From contig NZ_VDGH01000005.1 of NCBI RefSeq assembly GCF_006861795.1, positions 1 to 64,000 of the forward strand: a stretch of DNA of 64,000 nt, read 5' to 3'. The DNA comes from Psychrobacillus lasiicapitis (GTDB taxonomy: Bacteria > Bacillota > Bacilli > Bacillales_A > Planococcaceae). A program made the translations under genes and the position numbers. Numbering within the stretch: position 1 is the stretch's first letter; the number at the start of each line of letters is the position of its first letter. The notes below the pieces were generated by a model. That model ran no database searches, had not been told where the DNA came from, and saw only the letters and a program-made list of their open reading frames with translations. Shown in pieces: positions 3,635-56,916 of the stretch.

Positions 3635-5979
3635 TTTTGCTCCTCCTCAGGAACGGTTTGCCCTGCTCTTCGCTCTTCAAACCATTGTTTCAGTTCAATG
3701 TATGGCGCATATAATAGCTTCTGTTCAAGCTCAATTTCATTTGCACGCTGTTGATACGCTGGTGCTTCCGATAAATCTTGTTTAGTAAGATGCTCATTCA
3801 TAACCAACGACCCACCCTCTATTCTAACAAAATTAAGTTCAAAAAACACCTTTGACATGAAATTAATTGTTTTTTGGCTCCAGCCAGTATGCTTAGATAA
3901 TTCATGTATATGTTGCTTTAATGCAAATGTTTTGCGTTTTGATAAAAAGGAGAAGTACCACTTAAATTGTTCTCGTGTCGGTAAACCTTCAAAATACGTA
4001 GACTCATCTGCATAGAAATGTACATATATCCTTTGCCACTCTTGGTAATCTAGCAATTGAGTTAGCTCTTTTTCAGTAGATGGCAAATCTAATATAGTTA
4101 TAAACTGAGCATGGACTTGCTGTTCCATCAATTCTGCGCTTAGCCATATATCTTTTGGAATAACCGATCTATAGTGAGCGACCGTCTGTTCATGGAATGC
4201 AACAAACACAGTTTGTTCAAGAGGAATCGTAGGTAGCCAACGATTCACTTGACGTATCCCGCGGATATCAAAAAGCTGCCATTCATTTGTTTTTGCATCT
4301 TGAATCATCAGCTGTGGCTTTTTTCGTCCATTCCATTCATTAATTTGCAAATCGCCTATAAAGGATAGTTTGGTCGCAGGAGCAATTTCATCTACTAGTT
4401 CTCCTTTACCAAATCCAATTGCATCTAATAACGTAACACCTTGCTTCAGTTCCATTTTGATATGGTTTTGTGCAGACCCAATTTTACGTATGGAGGAAAC
4501 TTCTACATTTTCTATACAATATACTGGCTTTGTAAAATCCATTCCGAATGGGGCAAGTTGTTTTAACGATTCAATAGATTCGGTTGAAATTTCATCCATT
4601 TCCAGCGGAACATCTATAGAAACAATCGGGACTAATTGCTCTTCCGTTAGAACTAGTATAGCCTGTTCATTTAGTCGTTTACGAAACGTTTCTACGTGCT
4701 CCAGAGGTAAAGTCATACCAGCTGCCATTGGGTGCCCACCAAAATGGGGTACAATGTCGCTGTTTTTGGCAATCTCTTTATACATATGGAAACCTGCAAT
4801 ACTACGAGCTGAACCTTTTGCTATTTGCTTTTCTTCATCAAAGCCAAGAACAATGGCAGGTCGGTAATATTTTTCTACCAGTTTGGAAGCTACAATTCCT
4901 AGTACTCCAGGGTTCCAACCTTTTTTACCGACAACGATCACACTAGGACCATCTACCACATTCGCTTCGTCAATCATTTCTACTGCTTCATCAGTGATTT
5001 CTTTAACAATTGCTTGTCTTTCTTTATTTTTTTCGTTTAACATATTGGCGATCGCTAATGCATAGTTCGGCTCTTCCGTTAAAAATAATTCAACACCAGG
5101 TGCTGCCTCACCTAATCTACCTACTGCATTAATGCGGGGACCAAACATAAATCCAACCGTTTCTTCATTTATCGTCGATATATCTGCACCACTCACATTT
5201 GCAAGCGCCTCTATTGCTATAGAATCGGTTCGTTGCATTTGTTTTATTCCTTGTTGGACAAAATAACGGTTTTCTCCAGTCAATGAAACCAAATCCGCAA
5301 TTGTTCCGATTGCTACTAAGTAATAGAATTCTTTCGGTATTTCTCCAATTAGAGCATGTGCCACTTTAAAAGCAACCCCAACACCAGCCAAATGAGGAAA
5401 TGGATACAATGTATCTTGTAATCCTGGGTGAATAATAATATCTGCTGCCGGCAACGTTTCTCCTGGTTCATGGTGGTCTGTTACGATCACATCCATTCCT
5501 AAATCTTTTGCAAATTGAATGGCTGTATGGCCAGAAATGCCGTTATCTACTGTAATGATTAATGTGACTCCCTCATCAAAAGCCTCTTGAAATAGTCTTT
5601 CACTAGGACCGTAACCATCGACAAAACGGTTAGGAATCTTAAACAACACATCAGCACCTAGTGCCTCCAATGTTTTCATCATAACTGACGTACTTGTAAT
5701 GCCGTCCGCGTCGTAATCACCGTACACCATAATACGCTCATCTGCGTCTATTGCCTGATGAACGCGCGCTACTAGGGCATCCATTCCAGTCAGCAAAAAT
5801 GGATTATGTATCTGTTCTTCCGTTATATATAAAAACTCTTTTGCATCTTCTACACTTTCAAAACCTCTAGATACTAACACTTTTGCACATACACTAGGGA
5901 TGGAGAGTTCACGCTCTAGTGCGGAAACTAGTTGTTCGTCTGGTCTCGAAATACTCCACTTTTTTTGAGATTGAATCAT
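3625..5979 (-). CDS. recJ: Single-stranded-DNA-specific exonuclease RecJ
   Basis: 5'-to-3' single-strand exonuclease used in RecFOR recombination and base excision repair. It is 784 residues, the size of the Bacillus form. The DHH-superfamily metal motifs are clear: [11 protein letters not shown] at 86-96, VDNGIS at 144-149 and DHH at 168-170. A DHHA1 domain with GGHPMAAG follows near residue 420, then an OB-fold and a Bacillus-type C-terminal extension. It ends 10 bases inside apt. A lapA terminator lies upstream, so recJ probably has its own promoter. Confidence 0.96.
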
Positions 5980-6529: not shown

Positions 6530-8800
6530 TTAAACTACCGGCTCATCAGAACCCCATTTTTTCTCATCTTTCTTCACATCAAGTCCGCCTGTTTTACGTA
6601 ACTCTTTCGCTTTCAAATCGAACCATATCTGAGCAGCGATAAAAATAGAAGAATACGTACCTGCGATTAATCCTATTAATAAAGCAATGGAGAAGTTTTG
6701 AATTCCACCTGCCCCAAATAGTAGAAGCGCCACAACTACTAAAATAACAGTTAACACCGTATTTACAGAACGTCCAAGCGTTTGGCGTAATGATTTGTTT
6801 ACAATTAAAGCAAGTTCATCTTCGTTAGTAATCTTCTTGCTACGATGTAAATTTTCACGAATACGGTCAAACGTAACAATCGTATCATTGATCGAATAAC
6901 CGACAATCGTCAGTACAGCGGCTATAAATGTAATATCTACCTCTAAGCGTAGAATACTGAATATCGAAACCATTAAAAATGCATCATGTAATAACGAGAC
7001 GATGGAAGCTAAACCCATTCTCCATTCGAAACGGAATGCAACATAGATAACAATTCCTATTGCTGCAAAAAGAAGCGCACGAATCGCATTTTTCACAAGC
7101 TCCCGACCAACCGTTGGAGATACACTGCTGACAGCTGGATCGATACCAAACTCTTCGGTCATTGTCGTTTTCATTGTTTTAACTTCTTCTTGAGTGAAAT
7201 CCTCATTATAGCTTACTACTGCTATTTCATTGTTATCTCCAGAAAGAACGATATCATCAGAAGATAAACCGATTTTATCTAGTTTTTCTGAAACAATTTC
7301 TTTCGTTAATGGCTCTGTAGACTGAATATCTACACGAGTTCCACTTGAGAAATCAATTCCGAGATTTAACTTGAATACACTTAAGATAATAATTCCCGCA
7401 ATCGTTAAAGTGATCGAAGCAATATAGAAAATTTTACGACTGTGAACAAAATCAAAACGATCAAATTTCGTCGTTAAGTCAAGTGTATCCACTTCTTCTT
7501 CCGGAGCGTGCATACGTTTCTTCGGAATGCCAAACCAACCTGGTTTATTATCAAAGTAACCACTGTGAACGAGCAAACCTAATAATATACGTGATGCCCA
7601 AACCGCAGTAATGAAGATAACTAATATACTTATGATTAACAGCGTTGCAAATCCTTTAACAGAACTTGTACCAAAGTAGAACAATACAGCTGCTGCCAGG
7701 AGAGTTGTAATGTTAGCATCAAGAATCGCTGAAAATGACTCTTTTGCTCCGGCGTCAAATGCCTTCTTAACGGACTTACCAACTCGTAATTCTTCCCTTA
7801 CTCGTTCATACGTCAAGATATTGGCATCTACCGCCATCCCGACACCGAGCACAATCGCTGCAATACCTGGAAGCGTTAAAACACCATTAATCCAATCAAA
7901 AATGACCAAAATCAAGAAAATGTAAACTACTAAAGATACAACTGCTACTACACCTGGTAAACGGTAATAGAAAATCATGAAAATAAAAATAGCGGCAACC
8001 CCGATAATACTAGCAAGAATTGTACTATTTAATGCTTCTTCACCGAACTGTGCACCAACAGATGTAGAATAAATTTCCTTTAACTTAACCGGTAGAGCAC
8101 CTGCATTTAAAACACCTGCTAAATTCTTTGTTTCTTCTACAGTGAAAGAACCTGAAATTTCTACGCTATTAGAATTAATACGCTGAGAAACTCTAGGATT
8201 CGATGTGAATTTCGGATCTGGCTTCATCACTTCAGCAGCGTATGAATCGACACCCTCTTCAAAATCCATCCAAATTACTAATACATTATCCGGCGCTGGT
8301 TTAGCAGCAATTTCGGATGTTATATCCGCAAATTTACTAGCATCTTTAAGTTCTAATGTAACAATAGGTTGCCCTTGTTGGTTAAAAGCATCCTTTGCTC
8401 CACCTTCTTTTAAATCTGCTCCATCTAGCATAATGTTATCATCTGAATTACGGAAAGTTAGATTCGCTTGCGTAGAAAGAATTTCCCTTGCTGAGTTCTG
8501 ATCCTCTACTCCAGCAAGCTGAACACGAATACGATGTCCGTCTTCTATTTGAATACTAGGTTCACTTACACCTAATACATCAATACGGTTCGAAAGAGCT
8601 GCTGCAGTAGCTGATACTACTTCATCTGTAATTTCTTGTCCTTCTTTTAACTCTTCTACTTGGTAAAGAACTTCAAATCCACCTTGCAAGTCCAAACCAA
8701 GTTTAATATTATTTAATACTCCACTAACAGTAGGGCTGATTGTCCCTGCAAAAATAACTAAGAGTAATAAAAACGCAACTATACGCCCTCTAGTTTTCAT
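6530..8800 (-). CDS. secDF: Protein translocase subunits SecD and SecF, fused
   Basis: RND-type membrane protein that uses proton-motive force to help pull preproteins across the membrane after SecYEG. A single 756-residue chain contains SecD (to about 420) then SecF, as in Bacillus. It has an N-terminal membrane segment, a large extracytoplasmic P1 domain, then SecD membrane helices with GMAVDANILTYERVREEL; the SecF half repeats the pattern with GYSINDTIVTFDRIRENL. I chose the ATG at 8800: GAGGAGG lies nine bases upstream. A longer reading from TTG at 8818 would start inside that ribosome binding site. yajC, a Sec partner, is encoded nearby at 11503. Confidence 0.95.
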   Translation of the reverse strand: MKTRGRIVAFLLLLVIFAGTISPTVSGVLNNIKLGLDLQGGFEVLYQVEELKEGQEITDEVVSATAAALSNRIDVLGVSEPSIQIEDGHRIRVQLAGVEDQNSAREILSTQANLTFRNSDDNIMLDGADLKEGGAKDAFNQQGQPIVTLELKDASKFADITSEIAAKPAPDNVLVIWMDFEEGVDSYAAEVMKPDPKFTSNPRVSQRINSNSVEISGSFTVEETKNLAGVLNAGALPVKLKEIYSTSVGAQFGEEALNSTILASIIGVAAIFIFMIFYYRLPGVVAVVSLVVYIFLILVIFDWINGVLTLPGIAAIVLGVGMAVDANILTYERVREELRVGKSVKKAFDAGAKESFSAILDANITTLLAAAVLFYFGTSSVKGFATLLIISILVIFITAVWASRILLGLLVHSGYFDNKPGWFGIPKKRMHAPEEEVDTLDLTTKFDRFDFVHSRKIFYIASITLTIAGIIILSVFKLNLGIDFSSGTRVDIQSTEPLTKEIVSEKLDKIGLSSDDIVLSGDNNEIAVVSYNEDFTQEEVKTMKTTMTEEFGIDPAVSSVSPTVGRELVKNAIRALLFAAIGIVIYVAFRFEWRMGLASIVSLLHDAFLMVSIFSILRLEVDITFIAAVLTIVGYSINDTIVTFDRIRENLHRSKKITNEDELALIVNKSLRQTLGRSVNTVLTVILVVVALLLFGAGGIQNFSIALLIGLIAGTYSSIFIAAQIWFDLKAKELRKTGGLDVKKDEKKWGSDEPVV

Positions 8801-16695: not shown

Positions 16696-17505
16696 TTAAA
16701 AGTGGTGGTGATGGTGATATGGTGGGCATGGATATACCGGTACATAACAAATCTGTACGCATGGGCAACCACCAAAATGTGCTTGCATATGTGGGTGCAT
16801 GCCAGGATGCATTTGTGGGTACATACATTGGTACATATAGGAAAAATCTTGTTCTGGCGGGCATGGATACATTTCTTCGAATACAGGGGACGGCTCTTGC
16901 GCTATTGGTTGCGTTTGTTGTTGAACTGGTGGTGCTGGCGGCGGTGGTGCTGGTTTTTCACGCTCTGTAAAATTCGCTTGAATATGAATAGATGTTGATT
17001 CCACTAGTCTCCAGCCTTGCGGAGATGGGGTCATATCTAAGTCTGGAACTGGCATCATGTGATATGGCAATGAATAAGATGGCATCGGTTGCGGCCTAAC
17101 AGGTGGTGCTGGCGGCGGTGCAATCGGGACCGGTTGAACAGGTTGAGCTTTTGGCGGGACTTGTTGTGCTTTCGGCGGTACCGGCTGTGCTTTTGGTGGC
17201 ACATGTTGCGCTTTTGGCGGGATTTGTTGTGCCTTCGGTGGTACCTGGTGTGCTTTTGGTGGAACAGGGTGCGGTTTCATTTCCTCCTTCTTCACCATTT
17301 CTTTTTTAACTGGGCGATTCTCGCTATATGGATGATTGACGGATTCCATGCTTTTTGTATCTGGAATAAATATCTTCATACCCGGAACGATATATTCCGG
17401 ATTTGCAAGATGTGCATTTAATCTCTTTAGTTCTTCAAAAGAAACACCATAACTTCGAGAAATTTTCCATAGCGTGTCACCTTTTTCGACAATATGAATT
17501 TGCAC
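16696..17505 (-). CDS. safA: Spore morphogenetic protein SafA-like (LysM domain)
   Basis: 269 residues. One LysM domain at 2-48 (IHIVEKGDTLWKISRSYG, LNAHLANPEYIVPGMKIFIP) closely resembles the SafA N-terminus, which binds the cortex and SpoVID and organises the inner coat. The rest is low-complexity: a basic region at 64-76, six VPPKAQ-type heptads at 81-122, Pro-rich and Met/His/Pro/Cys-rich segments, and a terminal HHHHH. It is shorter than B. subtilis SafA (387). The start is GTG behind AGGAGGAAGA. Its position between ruvA and niaR also matches safA. In B. subtilis the nad genes lie between safA and niaR; here they are missing. Confidence 0.82.
   Translation of the reverse strand: MQIHIVEKGDTLWKISRSYGVSFEELKRLNAHLANPEYIVPGMKIFIPDTKSMESVNHPYSENRPVKKEMVKKEEMKPHPVPPKAHQVPPKAQQIPPKAQHVPPKAQPVPPKAQQVPPKAQPVQPVPIAPPPAPPVRPQPMPSYSLPYHMMPVPDLDMTPSPQGWRLVESTSIHIQANFTEREKPAPPPPAPPVQQQTQPIAQEPSPVFEEMYPCPPEQDFSYMYQCMYPQMHPGMHPHMQAHFGGCPCVQICYVPVYPCPPYHHHHHF
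17140..17265 (-). repeat. Six 21-bp tandem coding repeats in safA
   Basis: Six consecutive heptads of the form (V/I)PPKAxx at residues 81-122 of SafA are encoded by 21-bp tandem units. They suggest repeat expansion/contraction in a coat scaffold region that is likely extended and cross-linkable (Lys/Gln content). Confidence 0.85.
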
Positions 17506-46615: not shown

Positions 46616-47424
46616 ACGGCTTATTGATTTATGAATTAAAAGAAATAGAGCGAAATAAAAGTTTTATAGATCGACTAATAACGGCTGCAAAGAGCCATGG
46701 AATTACTCTAACCGTTATAGATGATCAAAATCCAGCAATTCCGGAAGCTGACTTCATCTTTTTTAGAACCAGGAATCCAAAGCTTGCTAAGAAATTAGAA
46801 CAACGCAGGATCCCAATGTTTAATCGTGCAGAAGTTAACGTGATTGCTAACGATAAATTAAAAGCCATTCAGCTCGTCCAGCTTCTAGGAATAGCCACTG
46901 TCCCAACAAAGAGAATACACAGTATTTCCGATATCAACGATTACCCAACTGTGTTAAAAACGGTTGATGGATACGGTGGAACACAAGTAGAGCTTAGTCA
47001 AACAAAAGAAGATGCGCTGCTCTTCCTAGAAAAACACGAGGCCCAAACAATCATCGCACAAACCTATATCGAAACAAACGCAACAGATGTGCGTGTATTT
47101 ATGTTAGGCGATGAAGTTGTTGGTGCAGTGAAACGCATCGGTGCTGAAAATAGCTTCAAATCTAACTTTACACTTGGCGGTACAGTCGAAAAATATATAC
47201 TAAATAGTGAACAAGCTGCAGATGTTCAAAAAATCGCTAAAGCATTGAAAAGTGATTACATCGGAATAGACTTTCTACTGCTACCAGATGGCACTTGGCT
47301 GTTCAATGAAATCGAAGATCCGGTTGGAGCAAGGTCCTATTTCGCAACGACCGGTGAGGACATTGCTATACCGATTATGAATCATATAAATAAAAAATTA
47401 ACTGAAAAAGAGCGCGCCAATTGA
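46612..47424 (+). CDS. ATP-grasp ligase, RimK-like (second of tandem pair)
   Basis: 270-residue paralogue of the upstream gene, more divergent. Nucleotide-binding segment TVLKTVDGYGGTQVELSQ near 113-130, then AQTYIETNATDVRVFMLGDEVV, and the C-terminal metal site FNEIEDPVGARSYFATTG, in which the usual NxN pattern is NEIED. ATGA overlap with the first gene implies coordinated synthesis and possibly a heteromeric or two-step reaction. No precursor peptide gene is visible beside it. Confidence 0.83.
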   Translation: MNGLLIYELKEIERNKSFIDRLITAAKSHGITLTVIDDQNPAIPEADFIFFRTRNPKLAKKLEQRRIPMFNRAEVNVIANDKLKAIQLVQLLGIATVPTKRIHSISDINDYPTVLKTVDGYGGTQVELSQTKEDALLFLEKHEAQTIIAQTYIETNATDVRVFMLGDEVVGAVKRIGAENSFKSNFTLGGTVEKYILNSEQAADVQKIAKALKSDYIGIDFLLLPDGTWLFNEIEDPVGARSYFATTGEDIAIPIMNHINKKLTEKERAN

Positions 47425-47446
47425 TAATTGGCTGCGCTCTTTTTTC
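47410..47446 (+). terminator. Terminator of the ATP-grasp pair, overlapping its stop codon
   Basis: GAGCGC and CCAATT pair with ATTGG and GCGCTC, followed by TTTTTT. The 5' arm lies within the last codons and the TGA stop (47422-47424) is in the loop region. Confidence 0.87.
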
Positions 47447-47460
47447 CGGGATTATGGAAA

Positions 47461-47565
47461 TTACAACTAAACACGCCATTTTTACAACTAAATGATCCAA
47501 AATTCCAACAAAACCTCCAAATTTTCCAACTAAACTAGCTTAAGTTCCAACAAAAAAAGTGAGCA
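47461..47565. repeat. Five-unit intergenic array, exact 21-bp period (family A)
   Basis: TTACAACTAAA, TTACAACTAAA, TTCCAACAAAA, TTCCAACTAAA and TTCCAACAAAA begin at 47461, 47482, 47503, 47524 and 47545, exactly 21 bases apart. The first 11 bases are conserved and the remaining ten vary. The last unit runs into the T-tract of the valS terminator. The array lies between two convergent terminators. Confidence 0.85.
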
Positions 47566-47596
47566 GGCATATTTTACGCCCACTCACTCTTTTTTC
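47552..47596 (-). terminator. Rho-independent terminator after valS
   Basis: Minus strand: AGTGAG..GGCGTA pairs with TATGCC..CTCACT, then TTTTTTT. It starts at the valS stop. Confidence 0.87.
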
Positions 47597-50239
47597 TTAT
47601 AAATTCTTCAGTTCTTCCAAACGCTTTAACACAGTTGCGTGTTTTTCTAGATAATCTTGTTCTTTTGCACGTTCTTCGGCAACAACTGCTTCTGGAGCTT
47701 TGGATACGAAGCGTTCATTGGATAGTTTTCCTTGAACTAGCTTCACTTCTTTTGCCCATTTTTCTAATTCTTTTTCTAGTCGAGCTTTTTCTGCATCGAT
47801 ATCGATTAATCCTTGAAGTGGAAGATATAAAACTGCTCCAGTTACAACAGCAGACATCGATTGACCAGGTGCTTCTAAATCTTGCCCGATTACAAGCGGT
47901 TCTGGATTACAGAAGCGCTCTAAATATTTTGCGTTTGCTTCTAGTACTGCTAGCGTTTCTGTGTCTTTTGCAGAAATATATAACGGCACTTTTTTACTCA
48001 TTGGCGTTTGTACTTCTGAGCGGATATTACGTACAGAACGAATAATTTCTGCAAGTAGTTTCATGCTAGCTGCTTCTTCTTTATTGGAAAGGGCTTCATT
48101 TACAGTTGGCCAAGGAGCTACTGTAATAGACTCCCCTTCATGCGGCAGGTTTTGCCAAATTTCTTCTGTAATAAATGGCATGAATGGGTGAAGAAGTCTC
48201 ATTGTATTATCTAAAACATATGCTAATACAGAGCGAGTCATTTTCTTCGCTTCTTCATCGTCTCCGTTTAATGGGAGCTTAGACATTTCAATATACCAGT
48301 CACAGAAATCATCCCAGATGAAGTTATATAGCGCACGCCCTACTTCACCGAATTCATATCTTTCAGAAAGTCTTGTTACTTGCTCGATGGTTTCGTTTAG
48401 GCGAGTTAAAATCCAAGCATCGGCAACTGATTTTTTACCATCTAGATTGATTTCTTCAAATTTTAAGCCGTCCATATTCATTAATGCAAAGCGAGATGCA
48501 TTCCAGATTTTATTAGCAAAGTTCCAGACTGCTTCTACTTTTTCTGTAGAATATCGTAAATCTTGCCCTGGAGATGAACCAGTGCTTAAGAAATAACGTA
48601 GAGAATCGGCACCGTACTGGTCGATTACATCCATTGGGTCTATACCGTTACCAAGTGATTTAGACATTTTACGTCCATCTTCTGCTCGAACTAGTCCGTG
48701 GATTAAAACGTCATCAAATGGACGAGTTCCTGTAAATTCAACCCCTTGGAAAATCATACGAGAAACCCAGAAGAATATAATATCATAACCGGTAACAAGT
48801 GCATTTGTTGGATAATACTTTTTGAACTCTTCGTTTTCAGCGTCCGGCCAGCCGAGTGTTGAGAATGGCCATAATGCAGAAGAGAACCAAGTATCTAGTA
48901 CGTCTTCGTCTTGATCCCAGTTTTCAGCGTCTGCTGGGGCTTCGTGTCCAACATACACTTCGCCTGTTTCTTTATGGTACCAAGCTGGAATTCGATGTCC
49001 CCACCATAATTGGCGAGAGATACACCAATCATGAATATTTTCCATCCAATTTAAATATGTTTTTTCAAAGCGGTCAGGTACGAAGTTTACTTTTTCTTCT
49101 GCTTGTTGTAACTTAACTGCTTCTTCTGCAAGTGGCTGCATCTTAACGAACCATTGTAAGGATAAATACGGCTCTACAACTGCTCCACTACGTTCTGAAT
49201 GTCCTACAGAGTGAAGATGCTCTTCAATTTTGAATAAAACACCTGCATCTTGTAAATCTTTGACGATTTGCTTACGACATTCAAAACGATCCATTCCGTT
49301 ATAGGATGCTGCGTTTTTATTCATCGTACCGTCTTCATTCATCACTAAGATTCGTTCTAAATTATGACGATTTCCGATTTCAAAGTCGTTCGGATCGTGT
49401 GCAGGTGTAATTTTTACTGCTCCACTACCAAATTCCATATCTACGTAGTCGTCTCCAACGATTGGAATTTCACGGCCAACGATAGGTAGCTTAACTGTTT
49501 TACCGATTAAATGTTTATAGCGTTCATCTTCAGGATGTACGGCAACTGCAGTATCACCAAGCATTGTTTCAGGTCTTGTTGTTGCAATATCAATAGAACC
49601 AGTACCATCTGTTAGGGGGTAATGCATATGATAGAATGCACCCTGTACATCTTTATGAATTACTTCGATATCAGAAAGCGCTGTTTTAGTTGCAGGATCC
49701 CAGTTAATAATGTATTCACCACGGTAAATGAGTCCTTTATTGTACAGCTTAACAAAAACTTCTTTTACAGCATTTGATAAGCCTTCATCTAATGTAAAAC
49801 GCTCGCGTGAATAGTCTAGACCAAGACCAAGCTTTGCCCATTGTGCACGGATATGACCAGCATATTCTTCTTTCCATTTCCATGTTTCTTCGACGAACTT
49901 TTCACGCCCTAAATCATAGCGAGAAATATTTTCTGAACGCAGCTTTTCTTCTACTTTCGCTTGTGTAGCAATACCTGCATGGTCCATACCAGGTAACCAA
50001 AGTGTATCGTATCCTTGCATACGTTTCATACGCGTTAGAATATCTTGTAGAGTAGTGTCCCAAGCGTGCCCTAAATGCAATTTTCCAGTTACATTTGGTG
50101 GTGGAATTACGATTGTATAAGGTTTTTTGTCGCTTTCCGGGTGTGCTTCAAAGAATTTTCCTTCGAGCCACCATTTATACCGACCTTTTTCAATCGACTG
50201 TGGATCATACTTAGTTGGCATCGTCGTTTCATTTGTCAT
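47597..50239 (-). CDS. valS: Valyl-tRNA synthetase
   Basis: Class I synthetase of 880 residues. HLGH (HIGH motif) is at 55-58 and [12 protein letters not shown] near 527. The CP1 editing domain includes [17 protein letters not shown]. The C-terminal coiled-coil arm (about 810-880) that grips tRNA is present. Expression is controlled by the T-box leader immediately upstream. Confidence 0.98.
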
Positions 50240-50261
50240 CTGTTGTTCCTCCTAATTAAAA

Positions 50262-50545
50262 GAATATAAAAAAACTCCATTCGTCATTAAAGGACGAAGG
50301 AGTTTGTTCGCGGTACCACCTTTATTCGCAGATGCCAAAAAATGCGCATCACGCTCTCAATTCGATAACGGCTTCAAACCGGCATTTGCTACTGTAAGTT
50401 CACAAATGCTGCTCATGGGCTACCTTCAAATGGTAGTTAACAGAAACATTTCAGCAAGTTGTTTCCTTTCTTTTGATAACCAAGTCATTTTACTCTTCCC
50501 AATCATTGCATCATTATTTAGATGTCAATATTGTACCTAATCTTA
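50262..50545 (-). promoter_or_regulatory. T-box leader of valS
   Basis: On the minus strand, AAAGGTGGTACCGCG (revcomp of the bases near 50305-50325) is the canonical T-box that pairs with the uncharged tRNA acceptor end. It is followed by the terminator stem ACTCCTTCGTC..GACGAATGGAGT and TTTTTTT at about 50268-50300. Upstream, GGGAAGAGTA resembles the Stem I GA motif. Uncharged tRNA-Val should favour the antiterminator and valS readthrough. I could not fix the specifier codon with certainty. Confidence 0.93.
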
Positions 50546-50585
50546 TCATATGTCGTCAAGTCAAGTCTCGTGAAAGGAGAATATT

Positions 50586-50780
50586 ATGAAAAGAAAAGGC
50601 TATAACCCTTATTTGTTACCTGATTGGTTGCGCAAAACACGGTTTTATTGCAAAGGTTTCATTATTCCTATTTGTGGTTTTCAGCTAATACGTGTATTAA
50701 TCGTACCTACCACTTGGGATTTTCTATTACTTGTTTTACTACTCCTCATCTGTTTTCTGTTTTACAGAGACATAATTTGA
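50586..50780 (+). CDS. Small membrane protein of unknown function
   Basis: 64 residues with a good ribosome binding site (AAAGGAGAATATT then ATG). Basic N-terminus (MKRKGYNPYLLPDWLRKTR) and one or two hydrophobic segments, about 23-40 and 44-60. I do not recognise the family. It is divergent from valS and overlaps the 3' end of the convergent SpoVID-like gene by 42 bases, which argues for some caution. Confidence 0.5.
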   Translation: MKRKGYNPYLLPDWLRKTRFYCKGFIIPICGFQLIRVLIVPTTWDFLLLVLLLLICFLFYRDII

Positions 50781-51374
50781 TGGATAGGAAACCTTGGAGT
50801 AGCCATCAGCTAAATCTAAAATGAATTGAAGTTCAGACTCTTCTCTTGCAGTGTTTTCGTTTTCTTTCGTGTCTTCTGTATTTTTTTCTTTTACATCTTT
50901 TTCTTCCGATATAGGTTCCAATTCTATTTTCTTTTCAATCTCAATTTCGATCTCTACTGCTTCCTCATTGGGACCTTCAAATTCGCAATTAACAGACCAT
51001 GCAATTTCAATTGCTGCATGCTCTGTGGTTTTCGCATTCACATGTTGAACATTCAAAGTAGGTGAACTGCCCGCCCGTATTTTTTCTTTTGGAATATCTA
51101 TACTCATAGGTACGGCATATTCAAAATAACCAACTTCGCCTTGTACATCTAAATCTTCAATTTCTGTAATTTCACTTGTTGCATGATGTGCATGTTCACC
51201 TTCTTCGAACTCAACATGACAGGTAATATGATAGATCCCCACTATTTGGATCGATTCTTCTGTTTCTTGTTGTTCAAATTGTGGAGTAACTGCCACCGTT
51301 CTTATATCTTTTGGCACACCGAAGCTTGCAGGAAAAAGAAACTGTTCTTTTACATCCCAATTTTTCACTTCCAT
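50739..51374 (-). CDS. SpoVID-like spore coat protein lacking LysM
   Basis: 211 residues. Residues 1-130 look like the beta-sandwich N-terminal domain of SpoVID (FLFPASFGVPKDIRTVAVTP, YFEYAVPMSIDIPKEKIRAG). SpoVID directs coat encasement with SafA, and its gene lies next to valS/hemL in B. subtilis, close to this position. A Glu/Lys-rich low-complexity segment (about 140-180) follows, and then a short conserved-looking end (LQFILDLADGYSKVSYPSN). The C-terminal LysM domain of SpoVID is absent. An alternative is an unrelated DUF3794-like coat protein. Confidence 0.6.
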   Translation of the reverse strand: MEVKNWDVKEQFLFPASFGVPKDIRTVAVTPQFEQQETEESIQIVGIYHITCHVEFEEGEHAHHATSEITEIEDLDVQGEVGYFEYAVPMSIDIPKEKIRAGSSPTLNVQHVNAKTTEHAAIEIAWSVNCEFEGPNEEAVEIEIEIEKKIELEPISEEKDVKEKNTEDTKENENTAREESELQFILDLADGYSKVSYPSNYVSVKQKTDEE

Positions 51375-51444
51375 TTGTCATCCTCCTTCATATAGGACAA
51401 CTTATGAAAAAGAAGGTACGAATAGAACAGCGATATTTTAGCAA

Positions 51445-52023
51445 TTATCTTAAATTTTCAGCTTCCCCTATTAGCTGTTTCCATTCGGACCAATCCGAAA
51501 ATCTTGGAATGGTTAGATGCTCATTATAGGATTGAGTTTTCACAAATACTTTCGTTTCACAGTTAGCCAGTGTATTTAATACATCTGGTTTGTCATCGAA
51601 ATAATAATCTAACTGCAATTTTTTAATAATATTTACTTTTTCTTGATCTTTCATTCCACAATAGAAATTTTCATTTTTCACCGGAAAACCTTGTTCTTCT
51701 AGCCATTTTTTTGTTCGTTCCCGATGTTCAGGCGGACGAGCAGTAATATAAAAAATTTCATGTCCTTCTTTCGTTAATTGCTGTAACAATTCTACTGCAC
51801 CTAAATAAGGTGGACAATTAGTATAATATATTTCTTCTAAAGAGCTGTTCCACATCTTGGAGCCTTCCTCTGCAGTCATACCAAAAGGCTCGTGTATTTC
51901 CACTTTATTTAACGCATGAAAAATTTCAAGCGCAATGTTTTGATTGAGTTTTTTATTATAAACATGGAAAGCGTGCTCCCGAAGGTTAATCAATGTATCG
52001 TCAATATCAAATCCAAATCTCAT
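51445..52023 (-). CDS. HAD-superfamily hydrolase, 5'-nucleotidase (NT5C)-like
   Basis: 192 residues. Motif I FDIDDTLINL at 4-13 gives the nucleophile and acid/base aspartates, motif II ITARPPEHR near 95, and motif IV DYYFDDKPDVL near 139. NT5C-family members hydrolyse (deoxy)nucleoside monophosphates. The start overlaps the ribD stop by four bases, making it the third gene of ribA-ribD-HAD; a phosphatase step in flavin synthesis is therefore a plausible alternative role. Confidence 0.8.
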   Translation of the reverse strand: MRFGFDIDDTLINLREHAFHVYNKKLNQNIALEIFHALNKVEIHEPFGMTAEEGSKMWNSSLEEIYYTNCPPYLGAVELLQQLTKEGHEIFYITARPPEHRERTKKWLEEQGFPVKNENFYCGMKDQEKVNIIKKLQLDYYFDDKPDVLNTLANCETKVFVKTQSYNEHLTIPRFSDWSEWKQLIGEAENLR

Positions 52024-53126
52024 TCTGTAATCCCTCTTTTATAAACTGGATATCCGACAAACTTAAAATCTTTTCCGATTTTAAAAAATTCCGTATCCAC
52101 TAGTTCTACTGCATCGCCCATACTTTCGATACCGGTGCCTCCCATAAACGAAGGAGCATTTATACCACCAATTAATTTTGGGGCAATATAAATAATGGCC
52201 TTATCGATTAATTGGTTTTCCAAAAATGCAGCATTAATCGTGCCTCCACCTTCTATAAGTAAAGAAGAAATCGATTTTTCTCCTAAGATGGTAACGACTT
52301 CAAGTGGATCTACGTGCTTTGGATTAGAAGTATGGAATATAGAAATACCTAATTTTTCTAAAGCCTCTTTCTTTTCTTCATCATAGCTTGCGCTTGTGAA
52401 AATCCACGTATCTGCAAGCTTATCAGTAACTAATTTCGATTTTAGGGGTATTTTCAAGGAAGAATCCAGTACAATTCGAAGTGGATTTCGTCCATTTGGG
52501 ATTCGAGTAGTTAGTTCAGGATTGTCTGCGATTACCGTGTTAACCCCTACTAATATGGCCATATGCTCATTGCGTAAATGATGTACGTCGTGTCTAGCCT
52601 CTTCTGATGTTATCCATTTACTATGACCAGTGTGAGAAGCAATTTTCCCGTCTAATGTAATACCCGATTTTAGTGTAACGAACGGTTTATTTTCTACGAT
52701 GAATTTATTAAACACTTCATTCATCTTGCGAGAAGACTCTTCTTCTACACCAACAAGAACTTCAATACCCGCATCTTCCAAGATTTTGACTCCTCGTCCA
52801 GATACGATAGGATTCGGATCGAGCGTTGCAATGACTACCGTTTGTATACCAGCTTTTACGATTGCCTCCGCACATGGGCCAGTTCGCCCATGATGAGAGC
52901 AAGGCTCAAGCGTTACATATATGGTAGCCCCTTTTGTTTTGTCTCTTGCCATTTGAATCGCATGAATTTCCGCATGAGGTTCGCCCGCCTTCATATGTGC
53001 CCCTACTCCAACGATGCGATTATCATTTACAATCACTGCTCCAACGAGTGGATTCGGATCTGTTTGTCCTTTCATCGCTTGTGCATTTTGAAGCGCTAAA
53101 TTCATATAAAACGTATGATTAGTCAT
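52020..53126 (-). CDS. ribD: Riboflavin biosynthesis deaminase/reductase RibD
   Basis: Bifunctional enzyme performing the second and third steps from the GTP cyclohydrolase II product. 368 residues from ATG at 53126. N-terminal deaminase with zinc site HAEIHA near residue 51 and PCSHHGRTGPC near 75-85; C-terminal reductase (about 147-365) with KSGITLDGKIA and IEGGGTINAAFLE. The open frame extends upstream to 53249 but runs through ribA; the ribA stop overlaps this ATG by eight bases (coupled translation). Confidence 0.94.
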   Translation of the reverse strand: MTNHTFYMNLALQNAQAMKGQTDPNPLVGAVIVNDNRIVGVGAHMKAGEPHAEIHAIQMARDKTKGATIYVTLEPCSHHGRTGPCAEAIVKAGIQTVVIATLDPNPIVSGRGVKILEDAGIEVLVGVEEESSRKMNEVFNKFIVENKPFVTLKSGITLDGKIASHTGHSKWITSEEARHDVHHLRNEHMAILVGVNTVIADNPELTTRIPNGRNPLRIVLDSSLKIPLKSKLVTDKLADTWIFTSASYDEEKKEALEKLGISIFHTSNPKHVDPLEVVTILGEKSISSLLIEGGGTINAAFLENQLIDKAIIYIAPKLIGGINAPSFMGGTGIESMGDAVELVDTEFFKIGKDFKFVGYPVYKRGITE

Positions 53127-53877
53127 GTAGGAATGTACCTGCTTCCTCCAAATGCCCAGAGCGGTTGATTTTCGTTTGTAAGTATGACTCATTATATTCC
53201 GAAACATCGCCCCATAAAGGAGTACGGCCAGAAACTGGAAGACCTGCATCTTGCAATGCTTTTAACTTTTTCGGGTTGTTTGTGATTAATGTTACTGGTT
53301 TAGAACGCAATGCTTTTAACACTTCAATTGCATCGCTATAATTTCTTGAATCATCGACAAAACCTAGTTTTTCGTTTGCTTCAACTGTATCCGAACCATT
53401 TTCTTGAAGGATATAAGCCATTGCCTTACTAAACAAGCCAATTCCTCTACCTTCGTGATTTGCTAAATAAAATAATGCGCCTGATCCATTGTCCACAATC
53501 ATTTGCATGGATTGTTTCAATTGGAAGCCACAATCACAACGTTTGCTTCCAAAAATATCGCCAGTATGGCAAATGGAATGCATACGAATTAACGCCTCTT
53601 CATCTTGCTGGAAATCCCCATAAACGAGAACACTCGATTGTTGATATTCAGCCAAATTAGCAGAAGATAAGTTATCTATAATTTGTCCGATATCTTCTGT
53701 TTCTTCCTTGCTATTTAACCAGCAATACCATTTAAAAATAACTGTTTCTCCGTGTAAGTTAACAGGCAGGCGAATCGGACCAACTAAGTAGATAGACCCT
53801 TCCGTTGCCTTAAGTACTTGTATTTTATCTTTTAAAACATTTATAGCATCGTTTGTAACGGTTTGTATATTAACCAT
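53119..53877 (-). CDS. ribA: GTP cyclohydrolase II
   Basis: 252 residues, standalone GTP cyclohydrolase II without an N-terminal DHBP synthase domain. Zinc cysteines in HTGDIFGSKRCDCGFQL near 112-128, GTP-binding region ANHEGRGIGLF near 145, and TNNPKKLKAL near 205. First gene of ribA-ribD-HAD. ribE, ribH and ribB are not present here, unlike the usual riboflavin operon, and I see no FMN riboswitch upstream. Confidence 0.92.
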   Translation of the reverse strand: MVNIQTVTNDAINVLKDKIQVLKATEGSIYLVGPIRLPVNLHGETVIFKWYCWLNSKEETEDIGQIIDNLSSANLAEYQQSSVLVYGDFQQDEEALIRMHSICHTGDIFGSKRCDCGFQLKQSMQMIVDNGSGALFYLANHEGRGIGLFSKAMAYILQENGSDTVEANEKLGFVDDSRNYSDAIEVLKALRSKPVTLITNNPKKLKALQDAGLPVSGRTPLWGDVSEYNESYLQTKINRSGHLEEAGTFLHD

Positions 53878-54067
53878 GTTAATTCCTCTTTTCTTCGTAA
53901 CTAAAATGCATTATCATTTATAGTATTCTTCTTTGATTACTTTTCGTAAGCAATTATATTTTAGTAATCATATTATGTCAAATAAGTTAGACTAAAAAAC
54001 TAACGGGCTAACTTTGTTTCGCATTATAGGGAAACTGTTTGGTAAATCTTTAGCAGGTGTCGACCGC

Positions 54068-54138
54068 GATTTTCACTGCAGTCGTCCACTTTTCGCCGGG
54101 TGAGCGATGAGCCATCCCCGCCGTCTGTAGCGAAAATC
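54068..54138. repeat. REP-like palindrome, copy 1
   Basis: GATTTTCACTGCAG at the left pairs with CTGTAGCGAAAATC at the right (12 of 14), enclosing a GC-rich core with CGCCGGGTGAGCGATGAGCC. GC content is far above its surroundings. Confidence 0.75.
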
Positions 54139-54208
54139 AATGGTAATAGTTTATATATTTAGCATCGACTTGCTAAAAAACAAAAACATCAACGTTATTT
54201 GAGTGTAT

Positions 54209-54334
54209 GAATCCAATAAATGGATAAGGGCAACCAAACGACTGTTGAAAGCGACCAATTCTAGTCTAAGAGCAACCAGTAGCAATCTAAAAACAACCAA
54301 ATTATCCCTGAAAGCAACCATTTTTTCATAACAT
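54209..54334. repeat. Six-unit intergenic array, exact 21-bp period (family B)
   Basis: GCAACCAA, GCGACCAA, GCAACCAG, ACAACCAA and GCAACCAT begin at 54230, 54251, 54272, 54293 and 54314, exactly 21 bases apart. Each is preceded by an (A/G)AAA-like end. A leading degenerate unit at 54209 reads GAATCCAATAAATGGATAAG and is nearly identical to the unit at 18260. Only the core is conserved; the rest of each unit varies. Confidence 0.85.
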
Positions 54335-54408
54335 AAGTTTAGTTGGAAAATCCCTCAAGAAGTTTGATTTGTTAAACAGGGACATCAATTAGATAGCGTT
54401 ATTCTTAA

Positions 54409-54528
54409 TGGATTGTAGCGGAGGGGCGGCGACTCCTACGGGATGAGTGAGTAGATGAAACATCGCTAGCGTCGGCGATGGCTCAACACTCACCCCGTGG
54501 AAAGCGTCCGCCCTATAGCAGAAATCCA
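54409..54528. repeat. REP-like palindrome, copy 2 (120 bp)
   Basis: TGGATTGTAGCGGAGGGGCGG at the left end pairs with CCGCCCTATAGCAGAAATCCA at the right. ACGGGATGAGTG pairs with CACTCACCCCGT inside, and CATCGC-TAGCGTCG-GCGATG closes the tip. It is GC-rich in an AT-rich region and resembles dispersed Bacillales repeats of the GCGGACGC..GCGTCCGC kind. Confidence 0.82.
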
Positions 54529-54605
54529 GTGGACACTTCATCAACTATCTACGTCACAGTATCTCTATATAATAACAGACCATCCGCTTTCTATCCCTAA
54601 TAAGA

Positions 54606-54633
54606 TAAAAAAGGACCTTGCATTGCAAGGCCC
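54606..54633 (-). terminator. Rho-independent terminator after hemL
   Basis: Minus strand: GGCCTTGCA pairs with TGCAAGGTCC, then TTTTTT, eight bases past the hemL stop. Confidence 0.88.
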
Positions 54634-54640
54634 CTCGTTA

Positions 54641-55933
54641 TTATCTAGCTAATTTTTCAAATACTGTATGGAATGCTTGTACTGTTTTTTCGATATGCTC
54701 TTCTGTATGGGCACTTGATAAGAATAAACCTTCAAATTGAGAAGGTGGTAGATAAATTCCTTCTTCTGCCATTAGACGGAAATACTTAGCGAATAGCTCC
54801 AGATCAGATGTTTTCGCTGTATCAAAATTAATGACGTTTTCATTTGTAAAGAAGAACCCAATCATCGAACCTGCTCGATTCACAGTATGTGGAATATTAT
54901 ATTTGGTTGCTGCTTCTCGGAATCCTTTTTCTAATTGGTCACCCAGTTTAATGAAATATTCATAGGATCCTTCATTCAAACGAGAAAGTGTTTCATAACC
55001 AGCTGTCATTGCAAGTGGATTCCCAGAAAGTGTACCCGCTTGATATACAGGGCCGCTTGGAGCAATTAGCTCCATAATTTCGCGTTTACCACCAAAAGCA
55101 CCAACAGGCAGACCGCCGCCAATTACTTTTCCAAGACATGTTAAATCTGGTGTAATTCCAAAATAACCTTGCGCACAATTATAACCAACACGGAATCCAG
55201 TCATTACTTCATCAAAGATTAACAAAGTACCATTTTGCTCTGTTAACTCGCGAAGCTCTTCTAAAAATCCTTCTACTGGTGGTACGACACCCATATTTCC
55301 TGCTACAGGCTCTAAAATAACTGCTGCTAAATCATCACCAAAGTTCTCGAATACGTGACGCGCGCTCTCTATGTCATTATAAGGTACCGCAATCGTGTTT
55401 TTCGCAATCGATTCAGGAACACCAGGACTATCTGGTAAACCAAGCGTAGCGACTCCAGAACCCGCTTTAATAAGTAGGCTATCCCCATGACCGTGATAAC
55501 TACCTTCAAATTTCAATATTTTATTTCTCCCTGTGTATCCACGAGCTAGGCGAAGTGCACTCATTGTCGCTTCAGTACCAGAAGAAACCATACGAACCAT
55601 CTCGATAGAAGGAACTCGGTCCATTACAAGTTTAGCAAGCTTGTTTTCGATTAAAGTCGAAGCACCAAAACTTGTACCTGTTTCTGCAACAGCTTGAATC
55701 GCTTTCACTACATTTGGCTCTGTATGGCCTAAAATAAGTGGTCCCCATGACAATACATAATCGATGTATTCATTGCCATCGATGTCTGTTAAAATGGCAC
55801 CTTTTCCACTTTCCATGAAAATTGGATCCATATCAACGGATTTAAATGCACGTACTGGGCTATTAACACCACCTGGCATTAATTCTTTTGCTTCTGTAAA
55901 CGCTTGTTTAGATAAGTCATATGATTTTGTCAT
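54641..55933 (-). CDS. hemL: Glutamate-1-semialdehyde 2,1-aminomutase
   Basis: PLP enzyme forming 5-aminolevulinate in the C5 heme pathway. 430 residues from ATG at 55933, which follows GGAGGAG. The PLP lysine is in [17 protein letters not shown] near 265-275, and [10 protein letters not shown] near 25 and [10 protein letters not shown] near 145 are conserved. hemB stop and hemL start share one base (TAATG). Confidence 0.97.
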
Positions 55934-56916
55934 TATTTCTCCTCCAACCATCGTGCAACGTCTTTTGCATGATATGTTAAGATGATATCTGCTCCGGCAC
56001 GTTTCATTCCTGTTAACGTTTCTAGTACTGTTTCTTTTTCGTTAATCCAGCCGTTAATCGCAGCTGCTTTGACCATCGCATATTCCCCGCTTACATTATA
56101 AGCAACGATCGGTAAGTCAAAGTTATTTTTCACATCACGGATAATATCTAGATAAGAAAGTGCTGGCTTCACGATTAACATATCCGCACCCTCTTCGATA
56201 TCAGATGATGCTTCACGGATTGCTTCCATACGATTAGAATAATCCATTTGATACGTTTTGCGATCTCCGAATTTTGGCGCTCCATCTGCTGCTTCACGGA
56301 ATGGACCATAGTATGCTGAAGCATATTTCACCGCATAAGACATAATTGGCACATCTGCGAATCCAGCAGCATCTAAACCGTGACGAATAGCCGTAACGAA
56401 TCCGTCCATCATATTTGAAGGGGCAATAATATCTGCACCTGCTTCTGCTTGGCTTATTGCTGTTTTAGCTAATAAATCAAGAGAAGGATCATTTAAAATT
56501 CGTTCGTCTGCATCCACTACACCACAATGACCATGGTCTGTAAATTCACATAGGCAAGTATCCGCAATGACTACCAAGTGAGGATGACGTTCTTTTATGA
56601 AACGGATTGCTTTTTGAACAATGCCGTGATCGTGATACGCTTGTGTTCCAACTGCATCTTTTTCTGCAGGAAGTCCAAATAGAATAACAGAGGGGATACC
56701 TAGTGATACTACTTCATCTATTTCCTCTCCTAGACGATCTAAAGAAAATTGGAAAACACCAGGCATAGAAGCTACTGCGTTTTTAATATTTTCCCCATCC
56801 ATTACGAAAATCGGGTAGATTAAATCTTCTTTATGTAAATATGTTTCTTTGACCATTGCTCTTATACCAGCTGTTTTTCTTAAACGACGGTGACGTTGAA
56901 ATACTAATTCTGTCAT
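55933..56916 (-). CDS. hemB: Delta-aminolevulinic acid dehydratase
   Basis: Porphobilinogen synthase, 327 residues from ATG at 56916. Zinc-site cysteines are in [14 protein letters not shown] near 115-128, and Schiff-base lysines in [14 protein letters not shown] and [22 protein letters not shown] is the SD. ATGA overlap with hemD confirms the start. Confidence 0.97.

Follow-up and report, generated by a model that had tools for sequence, protein, structure and literature searches.

The window, that is, the whole stretch of 64,000 nucleotides analyzed here, contains a gap of 763 bases between hemL (54641–55951, minus strand) and a ribA-like gene (53119–53877, minus strand), both named by eye, and this gap houses an array of short direct repeats at 54209–54334, which we assign to family B. 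The array consists of five 21-bp units and an in-register trailer, and its natural reading direction is the minus strand, the same as that of the two genes. Read from 54320 to 54216, the units are TGGTTGCTTTCAGGGATAATT, TGGTTGTTTTTAGATTGCTAC, TGGTTGCTCTTAGACTAGAAT, TGGTCGCTTTCAACAGTCGTT and TGGTTGCCCTTATCCATTTAT, followed by a trailer with the dyad ATCCATTTATTGGAT. The minus-strand core is TGGTTGCTTTC, and the cores, at 54230, 54251, 54272, 54293 and 54314, have a start-to-start distance of exactly 21 bases. The chance of a B match at any one given place is about 10^-10 in a base-composition model, a single-place value uncorrected for the places and periods tried. No initiator gene was recognized by eye among the ORFs near the array.

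The initial annotation described six units with a short conserved core, the rest of each unit being free. The latter part holds, as about 11–12 positions are common to all units and the remaining ones vary. Five units bear the core, but the "unit" at 54209, GAATCCAATAAATGG, is the in-register trailer, with the dyad ATCCA-ATAAA-TGGAT. The defined end that had been ascribed to the array does recur at other loci; what was read as its first unit is, however, this trailer on the minus strand. A single fixed core string is also not found, GCAACCAA being exact in one unit only and the others reading GCGACCAA, GCAACCAG, ACAACCAA and GCAACCAT.

Table 1. Features of the two intergenic arrays of the window and of their surroundings.
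Feature	Coordinates	Strand	Basis
B array, leader, related to family leader CCAAGTAAACTTGTTATTTTAAGAA	54321–54350	-	by eye
B array, unit 1, TGGTTGCTTTCAGGGATAATT	54300–54320	-	sequence
B array, unit 2, core TGGTTGTTTTT	54279–54299	-	sequence
B array, unit 3, core TGGTTGCTCTT	54258–54278	-	sequence
B array, unit 4, core TGGTCGCTTTC	54237–54257	-	sequence
B array, unit 5 (last), altered core TGGTTGCCCTT, as in many last units	54216–54236	-	sequence
B array, trailer; short dyad ATCCA-TTTAT-TGGAT at 54211–54225 overlaps the end of unit 5	54201–54225	-	sequence
REP-like imperfect palindrome flanking the B array	54068–54138		inverted repeat I2
Second REP-like palindromic flank of the B array, partly complementary to the first	54415–54525		inverted repeat I1
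Composite insert, between ribA-like gene and hemL, imperfect terminal inverted repeats TATAGnGAnACTG	54005–54575		boundaries approximate
Family A array, five 21-bp units, core TTTAGTTGGAA or close variants, directly 3' of the valS terminator	47451–47555	-	sequence and scan
valS intrinsic terminator hairpin, precedes the A array	47552–47592	-	by eye

The site between hemL and the ribA-like gene holds inserts of differing content across genomes. G007 has only a hairpin of 64 bases, whose inverted ends are 21 bases long (TATAGnGATACTGCGTGGTAA); the own genome (G000), G013 and G017 have larger inserts that include REP-like palindromes, and the G013 gap has a B array different from that of the window. 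This makes the window B array a component of a composite MITE-like insert, in which it was carried to this place and may be a passenger. The MITE-like insert with terminal inverted repeats TATAGnGATACTG... is seen in the window at 54005–54575 and also in L324 at about 6660–6730. In G017 (L321, about 3700–4150) a short array of three 21-bp units with core ATCCGAGCAT and a tail is repeated, at a site where the window scan has no array. The HemL search of genome contigs gave a top identity of 84% among the best 80 matches, which include Planomicrobium and Sporosarcina loci and no very close relative.

The second array of the window, downstream of valS, belongs to family A. A comparison of positions 47000–55000 with Rfam gave only a T-box at gathering score (50287–50515, minus strand, 133 bits), the leader upstream of valS, and no match at that level on the arrays; a sub-threshold match to the L20 leader at 47549–47664 (E 0.65) meets the A array at its edge.

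Both families are dispersed through the genome. The paired-core pattern of B, at up to 3 mismatches, has 83 + 112 = 195 matches in the own genome vs 6 + 12 = 18 for the reversed pattern, and that of A, at up to 2 mismatches, 58 + 30 vs 2 + 0. Among the own-genome matches listed, the 48 B arrays with at least three units show start-to-start steps of 21 (110), 20 (22), 42 (3), 41 (1) and 22 (1) bp; the exact 21-base step proposed by the initial annotation is thus a property of the window array but not of every member of its family, and the 22 of 137 steps that measure 20 bp imply a phase tolerance of at least 1 bp. Core-to-core distances between 5 and 37 bp at own-genome loci are 21 (71) and 20 (12) for B and 21 (80), 20 (1) and 27 (1) for A, counts that are supportive rather than unbiased, because the loci of both families were fetched via 21-bp patterns. 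Elsewhere, B matches stand well above the control in 7 of the 19 genomes of the genus. Of 261 genomes searched in the order, 22 have A-type pairs, 16 with at least four matches and six with a single match that may be due to chance; the 22 comprise 12 of the 19 genomes of this genus, six of g11, two of g3 and one each of g14 and g10. A plasmid or phage source of B was searched for in "distant" mode, with no match at E 0.01 in either collection.

Family B arrays have characteristic ends, a leader close to CCAAGTAAACTTGTTATTTTAAGAA and a trailer close to GCCCTTAgCCATTTATTGGAT. A short dyad, AAGGATATTTTATCC or TATCCATTTTTATGG, often comes after the last unit of an A array, and at base 9 of the A core (own genome and G013) T is present in 33 of 42 last units and in 28 of the 42 units before them, most of the earlier units having G. 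The mean dyad stems, 4.0 vs 3.6 shuffled for B and 4.3 vs 3.7 for A, are only modestly above the shuffled values, so that the dyad is a reading by eye rather than a strong statistic. The A spacers have a composition of their own: columns 12–15 are 80–97% A/T, divided between A and T (at least 90% in columns 12–14), and columns 16–21 are 46–62% G+C. Other array-like repeats, TGCTCGGTTA, TTGCGCG and TTGTCGCAGT, were noticed by eye adjoining B arrays elsewhere in the own genome (L018, about 1300–1440; L013, about 1550–1640; L024, about 1640–1720).

The two families differ in their history. Some B copies descend from one another, with spacer order shared beyond the 99.9% null level in nine of 350 array pairs, and the family has spread at least partly by whole-array copying. 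Since the B copies partly share descent, B alone would not prove selection, and that argument is carried by family A and by the comparison across families. For A, 206 pairs of own-genome loci have a mean spacer-order score of 0.432 against a null of 0.424, with one pair above the 99.9% level. The A arrays at separate loci thus have the core in common but not the spacer order, which indicates that the core has outlasted the spacers.

The period emerges also when no core is assumed. When the window was scanned for four tandem units at all periods from 10 to 45, only period 21 came up (17136, 47456 and 54230), along with its double, 42, once over 17136. The array at 17136 lies within an ORF, as the intergenic-only scans drop it; this repeat, at 17132–17277, apparently encodes a glycine/cysteine-rich heptapeptide repeat and seems unrelated to the intergenic arrays. 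In five genomes of the genus, twenty 20-kb stretches, of which one stretch was picked to include valS, have four-unit intergenic arrays at periods 21 (10) and 42 (2) and at no other, with zero arrays in the shuffled control. In 40 genomes of the family (40 stretches, 775 kb), four-unit arrays occur at periods 20 (1), 21 (5) and 42 (2), one of the latter two being a true longer repeat at the end of a stretch, and three-unit arrays at 12 (1), 20 (2), 21 (3), 41 (1) and 42 (4), while the periods of tandem repeats within ORFs of the same stretches are scattered from 9 to 60. Pooling 122 stretches (2.47 Mb) of the window and its relatives gives 32 merged intergenic arrays in the range of periods 8–39, namely 21 (22), 20 (4), 19 (2) and one each of 14, 26, 33 and 37, so that 26 of the 32 have period 20 or 21; because most of these stretches are centered on valS or hemL, the slot after valS is over-represented and supplies 11 of the 26. 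Outside that range, four loci from the HemL search (L053:11683, L055:11458, L056:4109 and L087:12907) have intergenic arrays with a period of 52, about five helical turns, and several of these have hairpin-like units TGTCCGAA...TTCGGACA. The 36 other loci from the hemL search (567 kb), nearly all from outside Bacillales (L126 is labeled Paenibacillaceae), have no comparable array: their period-21 matches are one 7-bp simple repeat and one A/T-rich stretch, and the other periods are 8, 9, 11, 14, 28, 41, 42 and 54. The initial annotation had named beforehand, as its refuting outcome, random spacing of the core or a lack of further arrays with a 21-base step; neither was obtained in the own genome or in the relatives.

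The slot downstream of valS allows different occupants of one place to be compared. The gene was located in 94 of 102 loci, with 70 downstream slots of at least 63 bp. Of these, 17 contain an array that is significant after correction and 53 do not, a count in which the slots of G013 and G011 were shortened by the ORF caller and G012 fell below the limit, all three having arrays visible by eye. The best periods of the 17 arrays are 21 (11), 42 (3), 40 (2) and 20 (1), in every case 20/21 or its double. Their cores, about ten in number, look dissimilar in a by-eye comparison: TTTAGTTGGAA, TTGCGGAGA, ACCACATA, TTCnGGTGATT, ATCTAGAATTC, GACGTCTGAAAAA, a weak TTCATGAA-like core (one), TTTCTACGC (20 bp), TAGTGCGGATGAAA (Planomicrobium) and CGCTCATAAA (20 bp, two Sporosarcina). 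That the step stays constant while the repeated word varies suggests that the spacing itself is under conservation.

The cores also change more slowly than the spacers. Between the own genome and G013, seven pairs of orthologous A arrays differ at 14 of 330 core positions and 44 of 299 spacer positions, and four pairs of B arrays at 14 of 195 and 38 of 200, so that core change is about three times below spacer change between these two close species; since the arrays were chosen by their core in G000, the apparent core divergence is somewhat lowered. The comparison comprises arrays with a syntenic match and an alignment cover of at least 75%. Flank identity is 90–96% across eight of the orthologous pairs, and one pair (L227/L359) differs by precisely one 21-bp unit. 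The B pairs are few and partly non-independent, two of the four being neighboring L015 arrays aligned to one locus, L389, of the relative. That the core changes slowly favors a function or, at the least, continued recognition, although gene conversion between arrays could be an alternative source of core conservation. Together, dissimilar cores with a common step and cores that change more slowly than spacers support selection on both core and step.

The arrays are not placed at random with respect to genes. Gene context was assigned with a crude ORF caller (at least 80 aa, longest first), and the baseline was taken from the window and the 20 genus stretches rather than from the whole own genome. 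Among the 74 own-genome A and B arrays, 73 have both neighbors called, and 3 of these lie in divergent gaps, which account for 22% of intergenic bases (P 2.5e-5 for avoidance). The 26 core-agnostic arrays divide into 16 convergent, 9 codirectional and 1 divergent; without the valS slot (n = 15) there are 7, 7 and 1, and the 7 of 15 in convergent gaps, compared with 11.7% of bases, still represent an enrichment (P 8e-4). The sense/antisense split of the codirectional arrays (A 8:8, B 18:11) is not trusted, because the ORF caller misses short genes, for example, beside L040. By eye, most of 27 A arrays start shortly after a sense terminator, with L218 (second), L219, L222 and L224 as clear exceptions, and tandem second and third A copies come after the first copy. 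A study on E. coli and yeast describes positive supercoiling as enriched between convergent genes (PMC8360656).

A physical side to the two-turn spacing is supported by a 10.5-bp alternation of A+T and G+C, which over the 14 period-21 families amounts to 0.219 vs 0.112 (P 5.6e-4); this value is preferred to an earlier 0.240 from 15 hand-picked families. The alternation is absent in B (0.07), F1 (0.05), F2 (0.08) and g11 (0.03), and the units have no identity excess at a 10–11 bp sub-repeat. Static curvature was considered and rejected, the wedge model giving for 26 arrays a mean z of -0.51 (s.e. 0.26), hardly above shuffles, with 5 of the 26 below -2; the window arrays, at -0.16 and +0.41, are not among the five.

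We consider that the window B array belongs to a large class of such intergenic arrays in this bacterial family, made of two-turn-phased recognition sites for a putative bound factor, and we place the probability of this reading at roughly 0.5. An array would be about 3–8 copies of a short core (about 9–13 bp) set 21 bp, or in some families 20 bp, apart, and the two-turn step would bring all copies to one side of the DNA. Each core would serve as the recognition site of a putative DNA-binding factor, bound copies would cooperate side by side, and the step would be kept since phase matters. The arrays would be period-locked recognition sites on one helix face, probably protein-bound. As many of them follow terminators, where the DNA is presumably little transcribed and, in E. 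coli, positive supercoils collect, a role in local chromosome topology or insulation may be guessed. A broader proposal, to which we give rather less weight, is that this category of element is defined by its step and not by its sequence: two-turn arrays with exchangeable cores would arise repeatedly at the same places after terminators, each time with another core. Every core would have its own fast-changing DNA-binding partner, or all would share one machine with a two-turn ruler, and the arrays would lie between transcription units as phased scaffolds.

The strongest competing explanation is an enzyme that copies or cuts with a fixed two-turn ruler, the arrays being selfish or neutral repeats that survive where insertion is harmless, i.e., after terminators. 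This would account for dissimilar cores with a single step, and it agrees with the location of the window B array in a composite MITE-like insert, with the spacer order shared by some B copies and with the tandem duplication of arrays, e.g., three times downstream of valS in G013, and also in L040 and L049. The cores of A, F1 and F4 further contain TCCAAC, GCGGAG and TACGAC, which we take to be MmeI-type sites, cutting about 20 bases or two turns away, a chance match being quite possible. A neutral relic would not, however, have cores slower than spacers between orthologues, and the A spacers are unrelated between loci even though they changed by only about 15% between G000 and G013, which means that the core has been held for long; we judge this explanation somewhat unlikely. 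Old, unevenly decayed tandem duplications of the ordinary kind would fit the shared ancestry of some B copies, but many periods would then be expected instead of 20 or 21 in 26 of 32 pooled arrays and 20/21 or its double in all 17 at valS, and this origin has very little probability.

The arrays might instead serve a DNA-wrapping protein of a general kind, for instance gyrase or a nucleoid protein, which needs helical anisotropy and not one given core, and lie where transcription piles up positive supercoils. The convergent enrichment, the family-averaged 10.5-bp signal and the core exchange at the valS slot are in line with this, as are the supercoiling of convergent gaps in E. coli and yeast (PMC8360656, in the part covered) and the account, in the covered portion of PMC1525189, of REP elements that bind gyrase and sit between convergent genes. 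Wrapping would, on the other hand, not need strict core conservation within a family, the curvature hardly exceeds that of shuffles, and B, F1, F2 and g11 are without the 10.5-bp signal; this reading is improbable. The initial annotation had proposed selection for phase with a DNA, 7-codon or RNA period. The selection finds support in the many dissimilar cores with one step and in the slow cores, but the last two periods are disfavored. A transcribed 21-nt (7-codon) repeat, i.e., an RNA or peptide feature, would suit the divisibility of 21 by 3 and the location of most A arrays, by eye, after the terminator of a sense-direction gene, and four of the six frames are open across the whole array in 23–31 of 42 A arrays. 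However, units and families of 20 bp exist and would break the reading frame, and none of the frames stays open throughout all arrays; the best one is open in 31 of 42 arrays of A and 30 of 67 of B, with several others, on both strands, open about equally often, and a coding repeat was rejected. RNA structure was likewise rejected with folding z-scores of 0.36, -0.23, 0.83 and 0.49, near chance, and the Rfam comparison has nothing above gathering score on the arrays. The GC skew of ten valS-slot arrays takes both signs (+0.61 to -0.23), and this change of sign between occupants of one slot speaks against Rho/rut or other strand-specific RNA signals. With such features highly improbable, DNA phase remains of the three periods offered.

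In the portion of the open-access literature covered, PMC5217627 and the papers cited here included, no description of such two-turn arrays was found. Plasmid iterons are direct repeats with a step of about two helical turns, to which an initiator protein binds on one face; the present arrays differ in being chromosomal, with dozens to hundreds of units and several cores per genome. CRISPR was considered and rejected, the unit being 21 bp, some B arrays sharing spacers between loci, and the neighbors hemL, ribA-like gene and valS not looking cas-like by eye. The likeness to REP/BIME elements lies, as far as the covered part of their description goes (PMC1525189), in gene-end location, often between convergent genes, and in many dispersed copies, and REP-like palindromes do flank the window B array. 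REPs are, however, palindromic, whereas the array core is a non-palindromic direct repeat: a palindromic unit is absent within the array units (fold z -0.23 to 0.83), and only the flanking elements are palindromes.

The STAR elements of Staphylococcus aureus are, in the portion of PMC3532100 covered, direct repeats interspersed in intergenic regions, with a conserved short core and spacers that vary, at loci that differ per species, much as found here. They have one 14-bp GC-rich consensus, T(G/A/T)TGTTG(G/T)GGCCC(C/A), and spacers of at least 40 bp, in contrast to the many cores and the 20/21-bp step of the present arrays; the cores TGGTTGCTTTC and TTTAGTTGGAA do not match that consensus, and the spacers, about 10 bp in units of 20–21 bp, are shorter. 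The BOX elements of Streptococcus pneumoniae, as described in the covered part of PMC3049150, have a leader, a variable number of tandem middle units and a trailer, and family B, with its leader, 3–5 units and trailer, has the same arrangement of distinct 5', tandem middle and distinct 3' modules, a likeness of architecture only. BOX is, however, one module set with a transcript predicted to fold, whereas the window arrays fold no more than chance and are built of 21-bp units. Explanations of interspersed repeats in bacteria usually treat one family at a time, whereas here about twenty families, dissimilar by eye, in one bacterial family and its near relatives obey a single spacing rule. Such a shared rule sets the constraint, i.e., spacing and place, apart from the sequence, so that phase itself can be tested directly; behind it there would be either a class of phased chromosomal binding sites not described before or a copying enzyme that measures two turns.
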